DNA from: a virus | Direction: 5' to 3' (one strand) | Virus record (IMG/VR): IMGVR_UViG_3300007735_000484 | Coordinates: 1 to 22,119 of that record | DNA: 22,119 bases | Part shown: positions 3,222 through 20,555 of the stretch, piece after piece | Numbering within the stretch: position 1 is the stretch's first letter | How the letters are laid out: every line of letters begins with the position of its first letter | Translations under genes and position numbers: made by a program | The notes under the pieces: model-generated | The model's input: only the letters and a program-made list of their open reading frames with translations | Told to the model about the DNA's origin: nothing | Databases searched by the model: none

Positions 3222-5615
3222 CTAGCGAGCATTGCTGTATTTAAAGGGGTTTTCGGCAAAAGCCATGTATATGTAAGTATATCCACTAGCATTTAAGCCA
3301 GCACCTGCTGTTTTTATTTTTATGCCATTTGATAAAAAGTCCATTCTTGCAGTGCCTGAGAAGTTATTTTCAGAAGCTGAACTATTTGGGTTAAGCTCAG
3401 AAGTTAAAGCATTGTAAGTATTTCTTGCTGCATCATACATTACCCAATCTGCACCAGCATAATCTGAACCTTTTATAATAACAAACCTAGGTCTAAACCC
3501 AGTAAAGATAAACGCACCATCTGTAGAACCATTACCTGTGTATGAGCCAAATGCACTATAGCCAGCGACAGGTGCAAAGCAGTAGGCTACAAAATTTGCA
3601 TTAGCAAATCCAGTTCCAAGGTTAACAACTGTAGATGTTGGGGTTGAATTAAATACTGTTGAATCTGTTACCGCTGCACCTGTTCCATTTAGTATTAAAT
3701 ATTGAGAACCAGTTGATATGTGTTCACAAAGCCAATTACCACCAGACCTGCCTTTAACAATAACAAAAGCTGGAGTAACACCAAGTCCATGACCAAAAGA
3801 TGAAGTTCCGCTTGATGGAGTTGTAAATGTTGCAATACTAAATCCAGCAGTTGTATTAGCACTTACTGTAGATGTAATAGAGCCTGCTGTGTTGGTTACT
3901 CCAGCCGCACCAGAGCCTTTCCAGCCCCAAGTTACATAAGCATTTCCATTCGTGTTGTAGCGACCATCAGAAGTAAATATTCTTAATTGGTTTCCTACAC
4001 CATCAAACCCAAATCCGTCAGTTCCAAAGCCTACTGGACTATCTGTTGCATTGGTTAAATTAGGCTGTAATGCGGCATTTGTTCCCCTAATATCATCATG
4101 CAATACATGATTGTTTGCGGATGTTCTGTTCTTAATCCACACCATATCAGGCTGCATATTTGCCCAAGAAATGTCTGTTCTTTGTGAAGCAGAGCCATTG
4201 CCTGTGTAAAGTAAAGCATCAAAATACCTATTCGCCTGACTAGATGCAGTAGCACCAATAGTAGGAGTAGGTAAGTTATAAGTGTTTAGTGCTACAAAGC
4301 CTGTTGGGGGTGTGTAGGCGAATGGTCTTTGACCGAAGTTTACATTAGAGAAATCTGCGCTACTGTTTATTTGTGTCCAAATAATGTATTGTTTTGTTGT
4401 TACACCTAATGTTCCAGTTGTTCCAATTTGCGTTCCATTTTTGTAAAAAGACACTTGGTTGTTTGTAATATCAAATGCACATCCAATAATATCGTTAGTT
4501 GTAAAGGTGGCGTATGTGCCTTGTAATGTTCCGTTGCAAAAAATTTGCCCACTATTGTTATAGCCAGAACCATTACCTGTAAAACCTAAAATATCTTGGC
4601 AACCAAACCACATTAAATTAGTTGATGGTGCTGTAATAGTGCCAACAGTAAATTCAACATACCACTTGCCTGTTGTTAAAGCTATTGTTGAAACACCATT
4701 TGCAGTTGTCGCACCGCCAGTAGCGGTCAAATTTCCATTGGTGCAAACTGGTTTTATACCACCATATTGCACACCATCTAACGGATTAATCACCGCATAA
4801 TTAGCCGTATTTAAGTTCGTGTTGGTCGGCACATCATTCATACTGTCGTATGTAGAACCGCTAGTTAGGCTGATGTTATTAACTGTCCAAGTATTACTGT
4901 TACCTGAGAAGTCTGTTCCTAGTGTTGATGTAGATGCAGTATTAGTAAATGGTAAATAGAATCCATTAGTGCCATAAGTGCCTGTGTATTTCTTAGGAAT
5001 CCATACACCTGTGGTTGTAGATGTTTCACCAAATGAGGATGGGGTTAGGGCTTGACCATCAATGAAGTTTATTTCGGTCATGTAGCCATCAAAAAAGCTA
5101 TCATTGCTACTTACATTGCGTCTGCGACCAATTTGCAAAGCAGCCGAATTGTTGTTTAACCCAAATGTTGAATTTTGTGATGGATTATTTGTTGTGCTAA
5201 ATGCAGTTACTTCTGAGCCATTAACATAAACTCTAACTCTATTGTTTGCAGTTGCTTGTGTTGTATCAATGGTTACAACAAAGTGATACCAAGCAGACGG
5301 ATCACGAAAGACTTGAGTTGTAACTCTATAATTTACTGTCCAGCCACCAACATAAAAACAGTTATCTGAACCAAATTCAAATTCAGCAACACCAGTATCG
5401 CTTGACGCTGTGTAGCCCTCAAACAATCTTTGAATAGTTCCTAATGTTCCTCTTTTAACCCAAAATGACCAAGTGCCAATGGATTGGTTTGTAGATGTTC
5501 CTTGAGTCCTATTTAAATAAGCAGAAGCACTAGACCGAAAGCGTAGAGATTTGGTTAAGAAATAACCGCCTTGACCAGAAGCACCGATAAGAGGTTGAGA
5601 ATTAATGATTGACAT
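3222..5615 (-). CDS. Large tail fibre / receptor-binding protein with LamG, SPRY and C-terminal repeats
   Basis: 797 residues. Three parts can be read. Residues about 22-222 form a LamG/concanavalin-like jelly roll (TWSFWVKRG at 48-56, AWYHFVVTID at 108-117, VRVYVNG at 127-133, FFDGYMTEINFIDG at 174-187). Residues about 316-432 form a SPRY-like domain (GKWYVEF at 316-322, GCAFDITNNQVSFYKNG at 378-394). Residues 464-797 hold three roughly 100-residue repeats. Such jelly-roll stacks usually bind surface glycans, so this is the best candidate for the host-recognition protein. It follows a shorter fibre gene by 8 bases, with AAGGT 7 bases before the ATG. It is Asn/Thr/Ser/Gly-rich, as fibres are. 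Confidence 0.82.
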   Translation of the reverse strand: MSIINSQPLIGASGQGGYFLTKSLRFRSSASAYLNRTQGTSTNQSIGTWSFWVKRGTLGTIQRLFEGYTASSDTGVAEFEFGSDNCFYVGGWTVNYRVTTQVFRDPSAWYHFVVTIDTTQATANNRVRVYVNGSEVTAFSTTNNPSQNSTFGLNNNSAALQIGRRRNVSSNDSFFDGYMTEINFIDGQALTPSSFGETSTTTGVWIPKKYTGTYGTNGFYLPFTNTASTSTLGTDFSGNSNTWTVNNISLTSGSTYDSMNDVPTNTNLNTANYAVINPLDGVQYGGIKPVCTNGNLTATGGATTANGVSTIALTTGKWYVEFTVGTITAPSTNLMWFGCQDILGFTGNGSGYNNSGQIFCNGTLQGTYATFTTNDIIGCAFDITNNQVSFYKNGTQIGTTGTLGVTTKQYIIWTQINSSADFSNVNFGQRPFAYTPPTGFVALNTYNLPTPTIGATASSQANRYFDALLYTGNGSASQRTDISWANMQPDMVWIKNRTSANNHVLHDDIRGTNAALQPNLTNATDSPVGFGTDGFGFDGVGNQLRIFTSDGRYNTNGNAYVTWGWKGSGAAGVTNTAGSITSTVSANTTAGFSIATFTTPSSGTSSFGHGLGVTPAFVIVKGRSGGNWLCEHISTGSQYLILNGTGAAVTDSTVFNSTPTSTVVNLGTGFANANFVAYCFAPVAGYSAFGSYTGNGSTDGAFIFTGFRPRFVIIKGSDYAGADWVMYDAARNTYNALTSELNPNSSASENNFSGTARMDFLSNGIKIKTAGAGLNASGYTYIYMAFAENPFKYSNAR
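3225..4226 (-). repeat. Three C-terminal protein repeats in the large tail fibre
   Basis: The units are at residues 464-587, 588-690 and 691-797. Each carries a core of [MTR]-P-x-[MF]-V-x-[IV]-K: MQPDMVWIKNR (about 487), VTPAFVIVKGR (about 613) and FRPRFVIIKGS (about 707). Each is followed by a W/aromatic and ends near an aromatic-rich strand. The first and third units begin YTGNGS. This resembles the repeated C-terminal domain family often named DUF7483 in phage fibres. Confidence 0.65.
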
Positions 5616-5623
5616 TATCTACC

Positions 5624-6610
5624 TTAGCTGTAGTTTGCTGTAAATACTGCATGAATAGATCCTGTTGTCCGAACTACATAGTCGATTCGGTCTACAGAAT
5701 TAGCTGCTGTGCTTAATGTAGGTGCTGTTCCACCAATAAAATCCCAAAAAGAACCATAAGCTAATGTTCGACTTCCTGTGCCATCTTGCACAACAAAGAT
5801 TGAACCAGACTGACCAGCAGTTAGGTTGGTTGGGTTAGCCAATGTCCGATTACCGCCCAAAGTAACTGTATAGTTGTTTGCCAAAGCAAAATCAGGAGTA
5901 ATAGTTGCGCCATCTGTTAATGTAGAGATTGATCCACGCTGTGCAGCAGTAAATGATTGTGCAGAATTAAGGACTGCAATATTAGCACCAGACAGGCTTG
6001 TAAATCCTTGAATATCAGCATCCCAAGATGCAGCAGAAGTTCCAGAAGTTAAGATACAAGTACAGACTGTTGTATATGAAGGTAGAACTGTTGCTACTAG
6101 ATTGCCTCCAGAAGAATTAACAGTAATGTTGCCTGTAGAATTGTTATGGATTTCAAATCTTTGTCCTGCTGTCAATGTCGATGCAACAGGTAAAACTACA
6201 GTTTGTGTAGTTGTTCCAGTAAAGAATTGTAAACAGTTGCTAGAAACAGTCAGGGTTGTAGTTCCTGCTGCTGTTGCTGTAGTTGTATAGCCTACAGTAG
6301 CAATAGAAGCTGCCGCTAAAGAAGAAGCACCTGTTCCACCATCGGCTACTGCTAGATCGGTAATGCCTGTAATAGAGCCACCAGTTACTACAATAGAGCT
6401 AAATGTGATGCCAGTAATTGATCCACCTGTAATCTTAGGTGCAGTCATGGTATATGTGCCATCCCGAATACCATCTCCACAGTCTCGGATCTGCGCCATC
6501 ATATCGCGCATAGTATCGTTTACTGCTGATGGGAGCATCCCTTCTGGCGCACCATCTGGCGGTGCAGCATTGTTATTAGCAGGGGTTAGAGAATATTTTG
6601 TGTATGCCAT
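5624..6610 (-). CDS. Tail fibre protein (short fibre / adaptor fibre)
   Basis: 328 residues, AAGGA ribosome site 7 bases before the ATG. The N-terminus (LTPANNNAAPPDGAPEGM, then LPSAVNDTMRDMMAQIRD) is a common virion-attachment start of podovirus fibres. It is followed by Gly/Thr-rich beta repeats (TGGSITGIT at about 61-69 and again about 76-84) and VADGGTGASS, a motif of trimeric fibres. Two similar beta modules follow: one ending ...LTAGQRFEIHNNSTGNITV (about 155) and one ending ...LTAGQSGSIFVVQDGTGSR (about 265). The role is a trimeric fibre or fibre base carrying or accompanying the larger receptor-binding protein encoded next. No enzymatic domain is visible. Confidence 0.8.
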   Translation of the reverse strand: MAYTKYSLTPANNNAAPPDGAPEGMLPSAVNDTMRDMMAQIRDCGDGIRDGTYTMTAPKITGGSITGITFSSIVVTGGSITGITDLAVADGGTGASSLAAASIATVGYTTTATAAGTTTLTVSSNCLQFFTGTTTQTVVLPVASTLTAGQRFEIHNNSTGNITVNSSGGNLVATVLPSYTTVCTCILTSGTSAASWDADIQGFTSLSGANIAVLNSAQSFTAAQRGSISTLTDGATITPDFALANNYTVTLGGNRTLANPTNLTAGQSGSIFVVQDGTGSRTLAYGSFWDFIGGTAPTLSTAANSVDRIDYVVRTTGSIHAVFTANYS

Positions 6611-10263: not shown

Positions 10264-10647
10264 TTAATCCTTTAAGTGTTTGACTGTGTTAAAGCCAACA
10301 GTTTTATAACCTAGTCTTTCATAAAACTGTCTGGTTTTATCCATGTCTACTGCTGTTGTCTGTCCTAGATGCAGATCATCTACACCCATATCTTTAGCCC
10401 ATGTTTCTAGTGATTTTACTAGTTTGAGTGCCACTCTACTACCTCGATACTCAGGTAATACAAAGAACCCTAGATCGCTAACTCGCTTACGATTACTAAA
10501 AAAGTATTCGTGTGCTAGACCAGATATAAACCCAACAATTTTGTTGTGTTCTATTGCGATAAAGCCTACTGCATTAGGGTTCTTAAATAAATGTAGAATC
10601 TTGTGCTTCTCAGGTACTGCGTAAGAAAACTCTGCCTCGGCTACCAT
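10264..10647 (-). CDS. GNAT-family N-acetyltransferase (N-terminus probably extends to 10704)
   Basis: 127 residues from the ATG at 10647. GNAT features: VGFIAIEHNKIVGFISGLA (about 27-45, strands beta2-beta3), VSDLGFFVLPEYRGSRVALKLV (56-77, with motif A RGSRVA in place of the usual R-G-x-G-x-[GA] acetyl-CoA loop), LETWAKDMGVDDLHLG (80-95), and QFYERLGYK (107-115, motif B). The fold is clearly GNAT but the first strand and helix are missing at this start. In-frame codons upstream encode IIEKLSLHRLEEFFELVTK, which fits them well, without any ATG/GTG/TTG. The ATG itself has no ribosome site. It sits between virion-protein genes, so it may modify a virion or host protein; the substrate is unknown. 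Confidence 0.85.
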   Translation of the reverse strand: MVAEAEFSYAVPEKHKILHLFKNPNAVGFIAIEHNKIVGFISGLAHEYFFSNRKRVSDLGFFVLPEYRGSRVALKLVKSLETWAKDMGVDDLHLGQTTAVDMDKTRQFYERLGYKTVGFNTVKHLKD

Positions 10648-11634: not shown

Positions 11635-11940
11635 TTATCCTACGATGATGTATTGAAAATTAAGGTCTGAATGACCTGTGTTTCTATGTGTAATTGTTGC
11701 TGAACCGCTTGTTTGTGCAGAAATATATAAATGTGCCATTTCTGCTGCTGCATGACTAGAAGTTGGTGTAAAAAGAATGACTGAATCTTTGCCAATTCTG
11801 GCATCTGTAAGTGTTGTAGTTGCAGACGATTGTGTTAATGTAATTAAACCAGTATTGTTAGTTTTGCCATTCATGATGCCATTGACTACTTCAGCAATTC
11901 CACGCTGATCTGATCCAAATGGCGGTAAAACTCTATACAT
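11635..11940 (-). CDS. Conserved small virion protein
   Basis: 101 residues. IAEVVNGIMNGKTNNTG (about 15-31), then TTLTDARIGKDSVILFTPTSSHAAAE, then a beta-rich end (SGSATITHRNTGHSDLNFQY). This arrangement (VVNGxxNGK.NNTG, TDxRIGxxSVxxxxP) is widely repeated in phage structural operons next to tail genes. It is beta-rich and small, as expected for a decoration, plug or tail-attachment protein. Its exact role is not known to me. The ATG overlaps the preceding stop by one base (TAATG). Confidence 0.6.
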   Translation of the reverse strand: MYRVLPPFGSDQRGIAEVVNGIMNGKTNNTGLITLTQSSATTTLTDARIGKDSVILFTPTSSHAAAEMAHLYISAQTSGSATITHRNTGHSDLNFQYIIVG

Positions 11941-13379
11941 TACCTAGTTCCTAGAGGGCTTAAATCAATGTCGATTCCGACTGCTGATGTCCAACTACCT
12001 GTAGGGGTTAATTGTAGACGATGATACCGCCCAACACCACGCACAGCCACTCTATTTTCGCTATCTGCTGCGGTCTGAGAACTAAATGCTGTGGACTCTG
12101 ACAAAAGCCTACGAGACAATAATGCTACCGATCCAGAACCATCATCTACGATTGGTTTAACCATCGTGATTGCTGAAGTAGAGCCTGGCACTTCAATATC
12201 GCCTGTTTCTATATACGCTGTAGCATTAGCACCAGAGAATGTAACAATCTTTGCACCATCTACACCAGCTAACTGTAGTTTTCCACCAAGCCAAAGTCTG
12301 CTATCAAATGTAGTCAAAATGGTGTCTAAATTACCATAAGTATCCATACCCTCTAAAGTAACAGCAGGGGTAGATGTAGATGCTATACGATCAACTGTTG
12401 TTGTACCACTTGTCCATCTTTGTGTCTGATAGTTATAAATAAGCAAACTATCAGCAGTTGCAGAACTAACAGAAGCATATGCCCAAATAATAAGTTTTTT
12501 GCTTGGATCTACCGCAGCCGACATAAGGTATAAAGTGCCTTCATCTACATTATCAAAGAAAAATCTGTTTACTTTTTCATTTCCAATAGGCACTACATTT
12601 TGACCATCACACGCATAAAATCCATCATCTCCTAAGAAGAACGATGTGCCACCATACTGAATAATTGAGTTAGCCTCATAACATCCTAAGTTACGACTAA
12701 TATTGTCGAATTGAAATATTAATGGGCTACCAATGTAAGACATTCGATGGATTGCTCGATCCATAAAGACAAGACCAAATTCTCCACCAGTAACACCGAC
12801 TATAGAGCCACCATCAGGAATATCTTGGTAGTCTGCTTGTGTCGTAGCGGATGTAGTCCAACTAGACTCATCGCCTAATGCTGACCATTGCACTCGATTA
12901 GGATAGCTACTTGGATATCCAGATACTACAAAGTCGCGCACTACTGTTACATATTTTGATGTTGGTGCATCGGCTGCTAAGTCTGCAAATAAAGAAGAAC
13001 TGTTTAAGTTATATCCTTGTAGTTTTGCATTGCCATTAGCTGCAATAATAACTGATCCAAATTGTGTAAATCTCCATCGTTCATCTGTTGCTGTTGAATA
13101 ATTACCTGATTTAGATACATTGTTTAATGCTAATGTTGCAGAATTTAACTTAAATAATTTTGTAGAACCACCAGCAAATACTGATGTAGCACCTGCGGTT
13201 GTTTTACCTGCAACAACATTAGTTAGGTTCTCAGAAGCCGATACTGAATAATCTACTACAGTAGGTATAGCACCATAGCCAACAAGTTTAGGGTACACAT
13301 TTTCTGCCCTACGCAGTCCATTAGTAATACCTGGCTGATCTGGTGTCCACTCTCCAAAGGTTATTCTACTTATTGCCAT
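11940..13379 (-). CDS. Probable tail hub / packaged-DNA stabilisation protein (P22 gp10-like beta-propeller)
   Basis: 479 residues, beta-rich throughout with repeated [IV]-x-[GAY] strands. It begins ITFGEWTPDQPGITNGLRRA and ENVYPKLVGYGAIP, then PNRVQWSALGDESSW (about 160-174), GSIVGVTGGEFGLVFMDRAIHRM (about 190-213) and FFLGDDGFYACDGQNVVPIG (about 246-265). This series (W-S-A-L-G-D, GxxxGLVxF, FxGDDGFYxCDG, PIG) is the pattern of phage tail proteins annotated as stabilisation or hub proteins. It would close the portal after packaging and carry the fibre complex. The first 10 bases overlap the preceding gene (13370-13379). A beta-propeller fold is inferred, not demonstrated. Confidence 0.55.
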   Translation of the reverse strand: MAISRITFGEWTPDQPGITNGLRRAENVYPKLVGYGAIPTVVDYSVSASENLTNVVAGKTTAGATSVFAGGSTKLFKLNSATLALNNVSKSGNYSTATDERWRFTQFGSVIIAANGNAKLQGYNLNSSSLFADLAADAPTSKYVTVVRDFVVSGYPSSYPNRVQWSALGDESSWTTSATTQADYQDIPDGGSIVGVTGGEFGLVFMDRAIHRMSYIGSPLIFQFDNISRNLGCYEANSIIQYGGTSFFLGDDGFYACDGQNVVPIGNEKVNRFFFDNVDEGTLYLMSAAVDPSKKLIIWAYASVSSATADSLLIYNYQTQRWTSGTTTVDRIASTSTPAVTLEGMDTYGNLDTILTTFDSRLWLGGKLQLAGVDGAKIVTFSGANATAYIETGDIEVPGSTSAITMVKPIVDDGSGSVALLSRRLLSESTAFSSQTAADSENRVAVRGVGRYHRLQLTPTGSWTSAVGIDIDLSPLGTR

Positions 13380-14323
13380 TGTTCTGTTCCACTAGATATT
13401 TGAGTCCAAGTTGTCGTTGTAGCGGTGATTCCTGTCCACGACTCTGATCCTGCTGTTTGTGCTGTCCATGTTGTAGAACTAGCTGATATACCTGTCCAAG
13501 TCTCTGAGCCTACTGTTTCGTCTACCCAATTATCGCCTAATACATTGCCACTTGCGACTACTGTTGCATTAGCTGTTATTAATCCGCTTGCAGAGTAAAT
13601 TGCTTGCGCTTGTGCATCTACATAAGCATTAGCAACAATAATACCTTCACCAGAATATTGAACACCGCCTAAAGCTGTTACTGTTGCCGACCCTGTAATA
13701 TCTGCAACAGATGTTCTAATCCTAATAGCCTCTGATTCCACAGAAGCATTGCCTGTAATTGTTGCATCGCTTGTTCTAACTCGAATACCTGTGCTTGCCA
13801 CACTTGCTTCTGCATTGACATCAGCAGATCCGACCAGTATTGCGTTTCCTGTTGCAACAACTGTTGCTGTTCCATTTACTATTCCTTCTCCGACCAATAC
13901 TCTGATTGCCTCGGCTGTAACAGATGCATTGGCTGTTATATCTGCTGACGATGTGCGTATAGCAAAACCATTAGCAACTGCTGTTGCATCTGCGGTAATG
14001 TCTGCACTAGCAGACCTTGTTCTTTGTCCTGCTGCTACGACAGAGGCATTGGCTGTAACAATAGCCTCACCTGTGCGTTGACGAACACCATCCGCGCTTA
14101 CTGTAGCGTTTGCGGTAATAGATGCAGATGGGAACTTAACACACAGAGTAGTCCATACTGGGTCATCAAATGAGATTTTTAGTTGGTCTAGATTCCCTAA
14201 AGAATCCATGTCCTCTAATCTCCAATTACCGCATACTTCGTCTGTTTCCCAAGTATGATCGAATGAGTATGGTACTTGCTCTAAAGTCCCGAACTGATCT
14301 AACTGTTCGAGAGTTAATGCCAT
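13370..14323 (-). CDS. Three-module repeat protein of the tail operon (10 x 20 residues, then Trp every 10)
   Basis: 317 residues, unlike its neighbours. Residues 5-61 contain a duplicated motif (LEQLDQFGTLEQ ... SFD and LEDMDSLGNLDQ ... SFD, offset 31), each ending in W and C. Residues 67-264 are ten 20-residue repeats, e.g. ADITADATAVANGFAIRTSS followed by ADITANASVTAEAIRVLVGE. Residues 266-316 have Trp at 266, 276, 286, 296, 306 and 316. It looks like an all-beta fibre or stacked solenoid. The start overlaps the preceding stop by one base (TAATG) and the end overlaps the tail-hub gene by 10 bases. A structural spike or whisker attached to the tail or capsid is plausible; no enzymatic domain is present. 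Confidence 0.75.
   Translation of the reverse strand: MALTLEQLDQFGTLEQVPYSFDHTWETDEVCGNWRLEDMDSLGNLDQLKISFDDPVWTTLCVKFPSASITANATVSADGVRQRTGEAIVTANASVVAAGQRTRSASADITADATAVANGFAIRTSSADITANASVTAEAIRVLVGEGIVNGTATVVATGNAILVGSADVNAEASVASTGIRVRTSDATITGNASVESEAIRIRTSVADITGSATVTALGGVQYSGEGIIVANAYVDAQAQAIYSASGLITANATVVASGNVLGDNWVDETVGSETWTGISASSTTWTAQTAGSESWTGITATTTTWTQISSGTEQWQ
13376..13528 (-). repeat. Tryptophan decad repeat at the C-terminus
   Basis: Residues 266-316 place Trp at 266, 276, 286, 296, 306 and 316, exactly 10 apart, in the frame W-T-x(8). A 20-residue super-repeat is also visible (GSETWTGISASSTTW and GSESWTGITATTTTW). Confidence 0.85.
13532..14125 (-). repeat. Ten tandem 20-residue (60-base) repeats
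   Basis: Protein residues 67-264, consensus [AG]-[DIS]-I-[TV]-[AG]-[NS]-A-[ST]-V-x-A-x-G/A-x(7). Unit starts are 20 residues apart. At DNA level the units have diverged, so they are old repeats kept in phase by selection. Confidence 0.85.
14141..14311 (-). repeat. Duplicated N-terminal module
   Basis: Residues 5-31 and 36-61 align (L-E-x-x-D-x-x-G-x-L-x-Q-x(3)-S-F-D, then W and C) with an offset of 31 residues. Confidence 0.7.
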
Positions 14324-14709
14324 TAGGCTAGGGTAACTGAAAGGCTACCAGATGCAATCTTGAAAATATCGCCTGTATCAATTGCCTTAGATGTTGTAAG
14401 CGGTGTGTGATACAAAAGATTGCCACTTGTAAGTGCATCCAAGATACCTATATGGGTAATTGTTCCCCAAGAAGTTGTGGCTTGGTCAAAAGTAATGTCT
14501 GCTGAAGTTACCGATGCACCATTGCTAGGCGCGCCAAAGGTAGCAGACTTACGAGCATAAGAACCGCCAGTACACTCTGTACCTGTATTAGCATCTGTTG
14601 GATCGCTAGTATAGAGACCAACATAAACTGTTGATGGAGATGTGTAAGTTGTGTTTCTTAGAGTTGCATTTACTAACGCATTTTCTAAGTAGTTTGACAT
14701 TTCAGCCAT
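14323..14709 (-). CDS. Conserved phage virion protein, beta-rich
   Basis: 128 residues. MSNYLENALVNATLRNTTYT (residues 4-23), then STVYVGLYTSDPTDANTG, GGSYARKSATFGAP, SWGTITHIGILDA and GNLLYHTPL. This is a recognisable phage family: N-terminal helix, VxxxLYTSDP, YAR, TFGAP, SWGTITHxGIxDA. It lies in head-tail regions and is usually left unnamed or called a tail or collar protein. It is beta-rich, soluble and probably forms part of the tail or a decoration. AAGGA precedes the ATG by 7 bases. Its stop overlaps the next start by one base. Function unproven. Confidence 0.6.
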   Translation of the reverse strand: MAEMSNYLENALVNATLRNTTYTSPSTVYVGLYTSDPTDANTGTECTGGSYARKSATFGAPSNGASVTSADITFDQATTSWGTITHIGILDALTSGNLLYHTPLTTSKAIDTGDIFKIASGSLSVTLA

Positions 14710-14718
14710 GTTATTTCC

Positions 14719-15339
14719 TTATCGTGAGGTTACTCGCATTTGTAATGGAACACCCGAATACTCACCATTTTGGTCAGCATCAGATATATTTTTAATTGCT
14801 CTGTCGTACAGGGTTGCCCATGTTTGACTTCTTGCATCGTTAATAAGATATGGCTCTGCTTCTAAAAGACTTGCATAGAGGAGAGCATCTGGATAATTAG
14901 CAAGAAATACATTGCTTGCATTACCAGTAGACAATACAGTAGGTTTAGCATAGTAGAGAATCTCCAATGTGTATGCTGTGTCAGGCTGTGGTGCTAACTC
15001 AAACTCGCTTGCCAGGATCGTGTAATAAATCGGTTTACCACTCTCATCTGCTGGTGCATCTCTAGTAAATGTACTAGGAGACATATAAGTAATAGGGTAT
15101 CTTGGGTTGCCTTGGATGTGCAGATCACGAATCTCTAAAAAGTCTGTAGGTAAGGCTACTTTGCCATCACCGCTTACTGTTAGTGCGGTAGCTGACTTCA
15201 ACATCTGCCGAGTGCGTAAGTCTCTAGACATTCGCAACTCTGCAAAACTAATAAAGTCGGGGATAACCGATGTTAGATCAGATCGACCTAAGTAGTTAGC
15301 CACCGATGCTTTTAGATCGGTAAAGTTTGTGTAAGCCAT
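14719..15339 (-). CDS. Head-tail adaptor (SU10 adaptor / P22 gp4-like)
   Basis: 206 residues. FTDLKASVANYLGRSDLTSVIPDFI (about 6-30) then FAELRMSRDLRTRQML (32-47) form the N-terminal helices. KVALPTDFLEIRDLHIQGNP, PYYTILASEFELAPQPD-type strands and YPDALLYASLLEAEPYL (about 149-165) follow. This helical-bundle-plus-strand order fits SU10-type adaptors and P22 gp4 tail accessory factors, which bind the portal and start the tail. Its place among capsid, portal and tail genes agrees. AGGA 7 bases before the ATG. Homology to the family is by pattern. Confidence 0.7.
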   Translation of the reverse strand: MAYTNFTDLKASVANYLGRSDLTSVIPDFISFAELRMSRDLRTRQMLKSATALTVSGDGKVALPTDFLEIRDLHIQGNPRYPITYMSPSTFTRDAPADESGKPIYYTILASEFELAPQPDTAYTLEILYYAKPTVLSTGNASNVFLANYPDALLYASLLEAEPYLINDARSQTWATLYDRAIKNISDADQNGEYSGVPLQMRVTSR

Positions 15340-15345
15340 AATTTC

Positions 15346-15981
15346 CTAATCTTTTGGTAGTTCGATGTTATGCCATCCATAGACATACTGCCCAATATGC
15401 TTTATTTGTTTAGATAGATCGTGATCTACCCAAGTATCAATTCCTGCATCTCTTGCTTTGATACAGAAGTAAATGTCCTCGCCTAATATCTTATTGTTTA
15501 GAAGTTGCTCAAAAAAGAAGTATGGCTTTTCCATCTTCTCAATAACTTTGCGTTTAATAAGCATAATTCCACAGCCAATTCCATCTACTTTTTCTACACC
15601 TGACTTTGCGTTAGAGTAAACCGCTAACCAATCTACCGATCCATCATCATTGATATGGATATTCCTGGCAGTAGGGCTAACAGGTTCTGCCCTTGTAGTT
15701 GCATTGACTCCGATAATATCTTTATCGTGAGCCATTAATATTTTTAAGGTATCTTTTGGAAACCGCATATCTGCATCTACAAAGAGCAGATAATCTGCCT
15801 TGTTTTCGAGTGCTGTTTCAACCAGTTTATTCCTTTGGTCAAATATTAGCGTTCCAGAACTCGTAAACAGGTCTATATCGTGTTTTGTGGTCTTAATGGT
15901 ATATGAACACATCGCCACCAAATCAAACGCTGTAGAGACCTCCATTTGCCCTCTAGCAGGCATCAATATAGCGATCCTCAT
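15346..15981 (-). CDS. GT-A-type glycosyltransferase (GT2-like)
   Basis: 211 residues. The N-terminus RIAILMPARGQMEVSTAFDL is the nucleotide-binding start of GT-A enzymes. LLFVDADMRFP (66-75) holds the DxD metal motif (Asp69, Asp71). ILGEDIYFCIKARDAG (165-180) holds the acceptor-side E-D, Glu168/Asp169, and IKHIGQYVYG (193-202) a His195 often coordinating metal. No signal or membrane segment, so it is cytoplasmic. It sits inside the capsid/tail operon, overlapping the upstream gene by 4 bases. It could glycosylate a virion protein or a host surface structure. The sugar and acceptor cannot be read from the sequence. Confidence 0.82.
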   Translation of the reverse strand: MRIAILMPARGQMEVSTAFDLVAMCSYTIKTTKHDIDLFTSSGTLIFDQRNKLVETALENKADYLLFVDADMRFPKDTLKILMAHDKDIIGVNATTRAEPVSPTARNIHINDDGSVDWLAVYSNAKSGVEKVDGIGCGIMLIKRKVIEKMEKPYFFFEQLLNNKILGEDIYFCIKARDAGIDTWVDHDLSKQIKHIGQYVYGWHNIELPKD

Positions 15982-18315: not shown

Positions 18316-18546
18316 TTAAAAAACCTTTACACGCTTCTTTTCAATTTCGCCATTGTGGGCGATTGATTGAATTGATGCTTCAAATTCCTCTAGTGCCTTT
18401 AGTTTTACTAAGGCTTTCTCTCTGCCTTCTACATCATGTTCGGCAGAACTAAAGATATACGACTTAAATGAGTCTTTCTGAGCCTGTATTAACTCTTGGA
18501 AAAACTCATCACCTAATAATGTTTTAGCTCTATCTACTCGGCTCAT
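18316..18546 (-). CDS. Small conserved protein between portal and scaffold
   Basis: 76 residues, almost all alpha-helical and charged: RAKTLLGDEFFQELIQAQKD, then GREKALVKLKALEEFEASIQS and KKRVKVF at the end. A protein of this shape occupies the same place in several SU10/P22-like phages. It is small enough to be an assembly or packaging accessory, but no function is recognised. The start overlaps the portal stop by 4 bases (ATGA). Confidence 0.6.
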   Translation of the reverse strand: MSRVDRAKTLLGDEFFQELIQAQKDSFKSYIFSSAEHDVEGREKALVKLKALEEFEASIQSIAHNGEIEKKRVKVF

Positions 18547-20555
18547 CCAGGTATCCTGACATCCCCTGTAAGTTTAGCTCCTACTTGTGCTGCTTTTAAC
18601 TGAGCCTCTGCTTGGAACTCTGCTGTCTTGAGTTCTAGGTTTGCAGCAGCTTTCTCTCTTTCGAGTTGGATAGATGCTTGTGCTTTAGCCTTAGCGATTT
18701 CTATATCGTTTAGGGCTTTGGCTCTGTCTACTTCGATCTGTGCCTGTGTCTGTGCCATGAGTGCATCTAACGCAGGGTTAGGCTGTGCTTGAGGTGGTTG
18801 TGGCTGAGACAACTGTTGGTCTAGCTCTGGTGGAATCTCCTTAAAGAACTCCATTGAGTCTTTGTACCCTGCTGCCTCAATAAATTTACCAAGAGTGTTG
18901 CGATACTGACCCACGCTTACTAACGGATTAGCAAAGCCTTGGGTTGACAGAATCTGCTCTTGTTTCTGCATCACCATCGCTGCCATAGCCATCTTCTGAT
19001 CTTGGCTACCTGTGCCTAAACCGACATTGACTGTTACATCGTAGTTGTTTTTCCACTCTCTTGGGTCGATAGAGACATACTTGCCTCGTAAACGAATGAC
19101 CCTTGGCTTGTCCTGATACTTTAGGATCAAGTGGAAAATGCCTGCAAATAAGTCTTTTACACCCGTATCGGCAAAGATACGAGCAATCATCTCTATACGA
19201 CCAGAACCTGCTTGTTGCATCGCTGCGATTGCTGTAGCGGTGGTGTTTTGTAGAATGTTAGGATCTAATCCTTGGCTTGTAGAAGTAACACCTGAACGCT
19301 TTTGCAATACTTGATCCATGTAATCAAGCATTGGGAACGACTGTGATGCTGTTGCTGGCACAGATAATGGCTGTACCGCGCCCTGAGACTTGATCCGCAC
19401 TACACCGCCAGGTGATGAAGTTAATAGGTCATCTAGGTTTACTTGTCCATCTAAGGCTGTAACCCTAGGCATATTGGTTAGGTACAGGTTATCTAAAATC
19501 TGACGAGTAATTGTAGACTTGATAAGCTGTATGTCCATTGCTCTGTCTGCTAGACTCTGACCAAAGAACTTGTGTGGCATAGGAATAGGGCAGATGCTTG
19601 CAAAAGGAATGTGATCTGTTTCCTCGTTATCAATAATCTCACTACCTGCATAGACTACCTTGCGTAGTTCTGCAATCCCATCACCATCAAAGTCGGTACG
19701 AATATAGCACTCAAATACTTCTACCTCTTGCATTGAGAAGTCTAGGCTCTGTGTCTCGTCTGGCATCTCACCTTGGGAGAACCTTGCTACTCTTTCAGGA
19801 GTGTAAGTTAAGTCGTTGTACGCTGGCATCTTGTCCACTTGATCTTGTGGATAGCCCATAGCGATTAAGTCTGAACGAGTCTTAACTGTGCGATGTGCTA
19901 CAAAACGAGCATTTTTAAGGTTCTTATCGCGCTTGGCAATTAAGAACTCCTCTGGTGGCACATTCTCGATACAGACCTTGCCGACTTCTTTTTTCTTTTT
20001 GATAACTACATTGTAAGAAAGGATAGGCATACCCATTGGGTCTATGCCGACTTCCTCTGTCTCTTGGCTGATTAGTTCCATCTCGCCATCAGCAAACAGA
20101 AGTGTTAATTCTTCTGCGTTTAGTCCTTTGTATTCTTCCTTAGTAGGATCTTCGCTATCTTCCCACCAATACTTAACGATTCCATTCTTTTGTAGAAGTG
20201 CATCCTTCATCCAATCGTGCAAGATGATGACACCATCGTTATCGTTAAAAAACACATAGTTTGTAAGTTCGGTAGCTTGCTTGGCAAACTCCTCGTCTCC
20301 TGGCATCCTGGGCTCGAACCGACCTAACTCGTCTGATCCAGCAAAGATACGCATAAGTTGAGGTAATGCACCATCTACGACCTCGGCTACCTCGCCTGTT
20401 ACGATCTTAGAACGACCTTCTACCTCGTTGCCATATTCGACTCGGTTGTAGTAGTTAATCGCCTTTGTGCGTTGCTCTACTGTCTCGGTCTCTACATAGC
20501 CGATAGAATCGTCTATCTCTGCTTCGAGAATGACCTTTAGTTTTTGTTCATCCAT
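18543..20555 (-). CDS. Portal protein (SU10/P22 type)
   Basis: 670 residues, similar in length to P22-type portals. N-terminal AINYYNRVEYGNEVEGRSKIV (about 32-52), central SLDFSMQEVEVFECY (about 268-282) and PIPMPHKFFGQSLADRAMDIQ (about 320-340) match the portal core. QGLDPNILQNTTATAIAAMQQAGSG (about 430-454) is the segment around the channel helices. The last 85 residues are a long Ala/Lys/Glu/Gln helix (AKALNDIEIAKAKAQASIQL), fitting the barrel of P22-like portals. It forms the dodecameric DNA gate at one capsid vertex. It starts immediately at the terminase stop (TAA then ATG). Confidence 0.92.
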   Translation of the reverse strand: MDEQKLKVILEAEIDDSIGYVETETVEQRTKAINYYNRVEYGNEVEGRSKIVTGEVAEVVDGALPQLMRIFAGSDELGRFEPRMPGDEEFAKQATELTNYVFFNDNDGVIILHDWMKDALLQKNGIVKYWWEDSEDPTKEEYKGLNAEELTLLFADGEMELISQETEEVGIDPMGMPILSYNVVIKKKKEVGKVCIENVPPEEFLIAKRDKNLKNARFVAHRTVKTRSDLIAMGYPQDQVDKMPAYNDLTYTPERVARFSQGEMPDETQSLDFSMQEVEVFECYIRTDFDGDGIAELRKVVYAGSEIIDNEETDHIPFASICPIPMPHKFFGQSLADRAMDIQLIKSTITRQILDNLYLTNMPRVTALDGQVNLDDLLTSSPGGVVRIKSQGAVQPLSVPATASQSFPMLDYMDQVLQKRSGVTSTSQGLDPNILQNTTATAIAAMQQAGSGRIEMIARIFADTGVKDLFAGIFHLILKYQDKPRVIRLRGKYVSIDPREWKNNYDVTVNVGLGTGSQDQKMAMAAMVMQKQEQILSTQGFANPLVSVGQYRNTLGKFIEAAGYKDSMEFFKEIPPELDQQLSQPQPPQAQPNPALDALMAQTQAQIEVDRAKALNDIEIAKAKAQASIQLEREKAAANLELKTAEFQAEAQLKAAQVGAKLTGDVRIPG

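Follow-up and report, generated by a model that had tools for sequence, protein, structure and literature searches.

Why does a phage protein end in six tryptophans placed exactly ten residues apart? The question is raised by a candidate collar fibril or fibre adaptor of 317 residues, encoded by an open reading frame at 13370..14323 on the minus strand of the window, by which we mean the whole 22,119-nucleotide stretch of viral DNA analysed here (IMG/VR record IMGVR_UViG_3300007735_000484). Relatives of the protein are encoded at 63 IMG/VR loci. The window is a fragment of a podovirus of the SU10/GP4-like kind, and since the record comprises these 22,119 bases, the genome is probably incomplete.

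An exact tryptophan ladder at the C-terminus

The tryptophans of the protein lie at positions 25, 34, 57, 266, 276, 286, 296, 306 and 316, and the last six are exactly 10 residues apart. Trp positions and comparison of the DNA units define a ladder comprising residues 266–317 (13373..13528, minus strand), which reads W-x9 five times followed by WQ; the codons from W316 to W266 occupy 13376–13528. The first-pass annotation had described the same six residues, spacing and coordinates, and both translation of the reading frame and shuffling bear it out. Among 20,000 shuffled versions of the whole protein no run of equally spaced Trp was longer than four, and among 20,000 shuffled versions of the last 62 residues, which are rich in Trp, none was longer than five. 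The spacing of the six Trp is exact and beyond chance. The motif W-T-x(8), proposed for the same region, holds in four of the five full units and fails in the first, which begins W-V-D. Antisense to the ladder frame, reading frames are short or interrupted, with the exception of one 57-residue GTG frame.

At 13370–13379 the ladder gene and the nozzle gene overlap: the last Trp codon (TGG) sits within ATGGCAATAA, where the nozzle gene starts, and the ATG of the latter overlaps this codon. We considered the last Trp as a by-product of this overlap and rejected the idea, as homologues with a longer tail after the Trp retain it.

The ladder shares a 20-residue unit with the preceding repeats

DNA repeats, a register table and autocorrelation define ten 20-residue repeats immediately before the ladder (residues 66–265; 13529..14128, minus strand). 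Their consensus is approximately (A/G)x(I/V)T(A/G)xA(T/S)VxAxG at positions 2–14, with a second hydrophobic residue at position 17. The gene carries DNA repeats at spacings of 60n, and the strongest autocorrelation of the protein, 0.36, falls at lag 20, a value reached in none of 2000 shuffles. The repeats and the ladder share one 20-residue register, in which the ladder Trp fall in columns 1 and 11; in the preceding repeats these two columns are mostly polar. Because DNA identity is 70% between ladder units 1 and 3 and between units 2 and 4, and 40–53% for the remaining pairs, the true ladder unit is 20 residues long and contains two Trp. This unit, common to the ladder and to residues 66–265, is the real repeat and was overlooked in the first-pass annotation.

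Alignment and dN/dS delimit an N-terminal region of residues 1–62 (14138..14323, minus strand) with two copies of a (F/L)G(T/N)L(E/D)Q motif, which is probably the virion anchor. Across relatives, the stretch that precedes the first ladder Trp varies in length by steps of about 20 residues within most N-terminal classes, with 160, 221 and 241 residues in the MADLLPPW class.

Gene neighbourhood

In transcription order, the window encodes a terminase, an SU10-type portal protein (18543..20555, minus strand; PF23899), a scaffold, the major capsid protein, an SU10-type adaptor protein (14719..15339, minus strand; PF24175), Gp80, the ladder protein and a nozzle homologue. The upstream neighbour of the ladder gene belongs to the Gp80 family, 'Podophage GP4 fiber I protein gp80' (14323..14709, minus strand; PF23140), and is a homologue of PDB 8jou chain a. 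The downstream neighbour is nozzle-like (11940..13379, minus strand; phrog_3287), with relatives among the nozzle proteins of PDB 8zkm/8zkk. Further downstream follow an ejection-like protein, an acetyltransferase, a putative fibre and a 797-residue protein. The fibre candidate (5624..6610, minus strand) was identified from its translation, with the N-terminus EGMLPSAVNDTMRDMMAQIRD, and from fibre-annotated matches to its C-terminal part.

Other genes of the window deserve a brief mention. The acetyltransferase-family gene (10264–10647; phrog_1249) lies within the tail module, and acetyltransferase genes are similarly placed in Paracoccus phage KLEP18-1, Octadecabacter virus DB2, BcepMigl and a Manatee Spring podovirus. 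Between the capsid and adaptor genes, 15346–15981 gives weak glycosyltransferase-like PHROG matches (phrog_34859, phrog_12406). The 797-residue protein (3222–5615) combines laminin-G, SPRY and DUF7483 domains and starts without a recognisable fibre anchor.

Conservation and constraint in homologues

The 10-residue spacing of Trp is kept in nearly all complete homologues, down to 39% identity, so that the spacing described in the first-pass annotation is a conserved property of the family. In an alignment of sequences at 39–87% identity, Trp266, Trp286 and Trp296 are invariant and Trp276, Trp306 and Trp316 nearly so. Tyr replaces the second Trp in three close relatives and two partial ones, and three relatives lack exactly 20 residues. 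Median dN/dS is 0.055 for residues 1–62, 0.31 for the repeats and 0.40 for the ladder. By this measure the ladder is under the weakest constraint in the protein, yet its Trp are retained.

Ladders are widespread in viruses

The first-pass annotation had suggested looking for W-x(9)-W repeats in phage proteins. We searched viral contigs for runs of six TGG codons a constant number of codons apart; each scan is a sample of at least 120 stretches. Among the matches listed, the ten-codon spacing gave 54 clean frames, 51 of them with the run ending no more than 12 residues from the C-terminus; the eleven-codon spacing gave 83, of which 44 were C-terminal. Exactly six Trp were present in 51/51 of the period-10 and 43/44 of the period-11 C-terminal ladders listed, even though more were allowed. 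The matches listed contained no credible frame at nine-codon spacing in viral contigs and none at twelve. The same pattern in bacterial and archaeal genomes (at least 120 stretches) yielded 18 clean frames, none ladder-like among the matches listed.

The remaining period-11 frames are internal and largely belong to tape-measure-like proteins (L194, L219, L224, L239 and others), in which Trp recur every 11 residues in helical-looking sequence. These share their period with the C-terminal ladders and are a different phenomenon. At one further locus, L287 (496–3093, minus strand), eleven Trp follow one another at period 11 close to the C-terminus; no other ladder observed exceeded six.

So as not to favour ladders of six Trp, loci were picked by Gp80 homology and their downstream genes read. 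These contained 49 six-Trp ladders and nine four-Trp ladders (one of which is really a six with a Tyr), every spacing being ten; none of the ladders at these loci had three, five or more than six Trp, and 18 loci had no complete ladder. All homology-fetched loci together comprise 89 six-Trp and 18 four-Trp ladders, and six of these 18 are sixes in which one Trp has become Tyr, so that true four-Trp ladders occur in about 12 homologues. Outside this set, three Trp were found in L140 and L199. Among cultured phages, Methylophilales phage Venkman has a ladder of four Trp and Octadecabacter virus DB2 one of six. The Trp ladder is found widely at the C-terminus of phage tail proteins, as a countable and conserved module with a period of 10 or 11; among the ladders listed, none had five or seven Trp. 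The proteins that bear it are currently annotated as adhesin, ribonuclease E, ubiquitin ligase or hypothetical.

Period-11 ladders, with the consensus W-x-x-(I/V)-(N/D)-D-(S/T)-Q-(T/S)-P-x-W, resemble those of period 10 in being C-terminal, in having six Trp and in adjoining fibre genes. They differ in period, consensus, the anchor types of the fibres and mostly also in their N-termini.

Ladder period and fibre anchors

Gp80 is encoded directly before the ladder gene in 28 of 79 cases. Sometimes a nozzle homologue follows; more often the next gene encodes a tail fibre with a recognisable N-terminal anchor. Some of the fibres downstream of ladder genes carry S74 chaperone or collar domains. The ladder period goes with the anchor type: period 10 with types A/C in 30/31 cases and period 11 with types B/D in 33/33, statistics that ignore the kinship of the phages. 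Within one N-terminal class the association of period and anchor type is 8/9 against 0/8 (Fisher p = 4e-4, kinship again ignored), and it is confounded by phylogeny. The fibre at 5624–6610 of the window has a VN(D/N)xxR anchor, a type seen with period 10, and fits the rule; it is a candidate docking partner of the ladder.

Family searches and structure prediction

The window protein has no match in Pfam and only a weak one in PHROG, to phrog_31951, where the function is unassigned. When 82 ladder proteins were searched against Pfam and PHROG, no family was common to more than five, and the module is absent from the families searched. Sequence searches of the PDB with the protein, with profiles and with typical ladders gave insignificant matches only, including 4opw and 3ljy (putative adhesin) at E ~0.007–0.17. 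Searching phage records by tblastn with ladder tails returned few matches, the query being too short and biased, and our literature search found no paper on regularly spaced Trp in phage tails.

The first-pass annotation had envisaged stacked β-turns or a solenoid bearing the Trp ladder, and had named an AlphaFold model as the check. AlphaFold2 predicted the full chain with a pLDDT of 35. For residues 160–317 modelled with 64 sequences, the Trp tail reached pLDDT 70–77, but the model had no confident fold (pTM 0.13) and no secondary structure by DSSP. Foldseek against the PDB and BFVD, together with VIA-align, found no structural match to the ladder model. A monomeric solenoid is not supported by these low-confidence models. 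The predicted Trp tail would suit either an extended stretch that a partner brings into order or an oligomer beyond the scope of a monomer run.

Comparison with known tail proteins

A loop of the SU10 nozzle, GPIWSDFQEITWDDPSIKELVW, provides a precedent: its Trp839, Trp847 and Trp857 form a quasi-threefold star and pack on Ile24 of the three chains that make up the short tail fibre (PMC9509320). This dock loop of gp17 is reminiscent of the ladder: Trp 8–10 residues apart occur in one chain of the tail, and the phage has a portal and adaptor of the same type. However, SU10 has three Trp, spaced by 8 and 10, in an internal loop of the nozzle, whereas the ladder has six (or four), spaced by exactly 10, at the C-terminus of a separate protein. 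The two share no apparent sequence homology, and the nozzle homologue of the window is the next gene. As for the multiple of three seen in the SU10 star, ladders mostly have six Trp, with four in about 12 homologues and three in L140 and L199.

Ralstonia phage GP4 and the window both encode a Gp80 protein, and the role described for the GP4 fibril is the one we propose for the window protein. PMC13243795 describes 8JOU chain g of GP4 as a dimeric fibril connecting an adhesin to the tail nozzle collar. Neither the window protein nor its profiles matched any 8jou chain at E up to 10.

The window ladder gene adjoins Gp80, and the same post-Gp80 position is found in Lessievirus phages. There, BcepIL02 gp56 and BcepMigl gp57 directly follow Gp80, contain 20-residue repeats (top autocorrelation lag 20) and are annotated as virion-associated, but lack a Trp ladder. 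Comparison of BcepIL02 gp56 with the window family by hhalign detected no homology (probability 1–2%). Proteins of this description lie right after Gp80 at the Lessievirus loci L701 (4001–4858) and L700 (9428–10168).

A possible role for the ladder

We propose, at a probability of roughly 45%, that the window protein is a tail-collar fibril whose Trp ladder docks tail fibres. The conserved short N-terminus would fix the fibril to the collar/adaptor region of the tail, the ten 20-residue β-like repeats would form a rod of adjustable length, and the six-Trp C-terminal ladder would act as a rail on which tail fibres, presumed on general grounds to be trimeric, dock by their N-terminal anchors. 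Each Trp would enter an equivalent hydrophobic pocket of the symmetric fibre base, as Trp839, Trp847 and Trp857 do in SU10, and the symmetry of the partner would then dictate the exact spacing. The virion-module context, the C-terminal position and fixed number of the Trp, the tie between period and anchor, the fibres that are mostly next downstream, the SU10 precedent, the description of the GP4 fibril and the repetitive Lessievirus proteins after Gp80 argue for docking. Its main weakness is that Trp numbers follow an even rule, four or six, and not multiples of three. Ladder units two apart (i,i+2) resemble each other more than neighbours (i,i+1) or units three apart (i,i+3), and hence a two-Trp unit fits better than a three-Trp star. 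Furthermore, the next gene in the window encodes a nozzle and not a fibre, and the dN/dS of the ladder exceeds that of the rest of the protein.

The even numbers would also allow a different possibility, which we hold as a less likely, tentative alternative: the ladder may be the self-contained tip of a dimeric or trimeric β-fibril, made of two or three 20-residue hairpins or coils, with Trp that stack in the interior of the oligomer or on its surface and so cap the fibril without a separate docking partner. The 20-residue unit common to ladder and rod, lengths quantised by 20 and even Trp numbers would all follow, as would the constant C-terminal position of the ladder. The failure of AlphaFold2 on a monomer is what an obligate oligomer would give, and the GP4 analogue is reported as dimeric (PMC13243795). 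However, the columns that hold Trp in the ladder are mostly polar in the earlier repeats, so the fold of the rod is not simply continued, and the tie of the period to the anchor type of the next fibre would be left unexplained. Binding of host glycans by Trp arrayed on a solenoid, which builds on the sugar binding that the first-pass annotation thought possible and would make the C-terminal tip the adhesin itself, is unlikely. Sugar stacking would suit aromatics evenly spaced at the C-terminus of a tail protein, and a nozzle rather than a fibre follows some ladder genes, that of the window included. Receptor-binding tips usually diversify fastest, whereas ladders from phages of many environments hardly differ in spacing, consensus and number. 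No carbohydrate-binding family was matched and the models, which are of low confidence, contain no solenoid; genomic context and the SU10 precedent favour protein–protein docking of fibres over sugar binding. It is highly improbable that the ladder has no specific role and is just low-complexity sequence maintained through slippage during replication: the ladder's dN/dS and the DNA repeats at multiples of 60 nt would suit such an origin, but the Trp are nearly invariant while other residues vary. The Trp number is fixed at six or four without drift, and on this ground we rejected a slippage artefact.

Extending docking to a general code, in which a flexible C-terminal Trp rail with a fixed number of Trp has its period (10 or 11) matched to the cognate anchor, is a more doubtful step. 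If such a code were true, fibre genes could be swapped during evolution provided that the period suits the anchor, and six Trp would serve two trimeric fibres or two layers of one.

The ladder touches on a central question of host range, namely how phages attach interchangeable receptor-binding fibres to a conserved tail. Its rules are countable (six or four Trp at a period of 10 or 11, a position at the C-terminus, a 20-residue unit), and the short motif can be found by a simple pattern and marks a large set of proteins under other annotations. It is a little-described C-terminal piece common to many environmental phages, for which a docking precedent is known from SU10. Its spacing and number are solid, and its job, as we infer it, is probably to hold the host-recognising fibres onto the phage tail.
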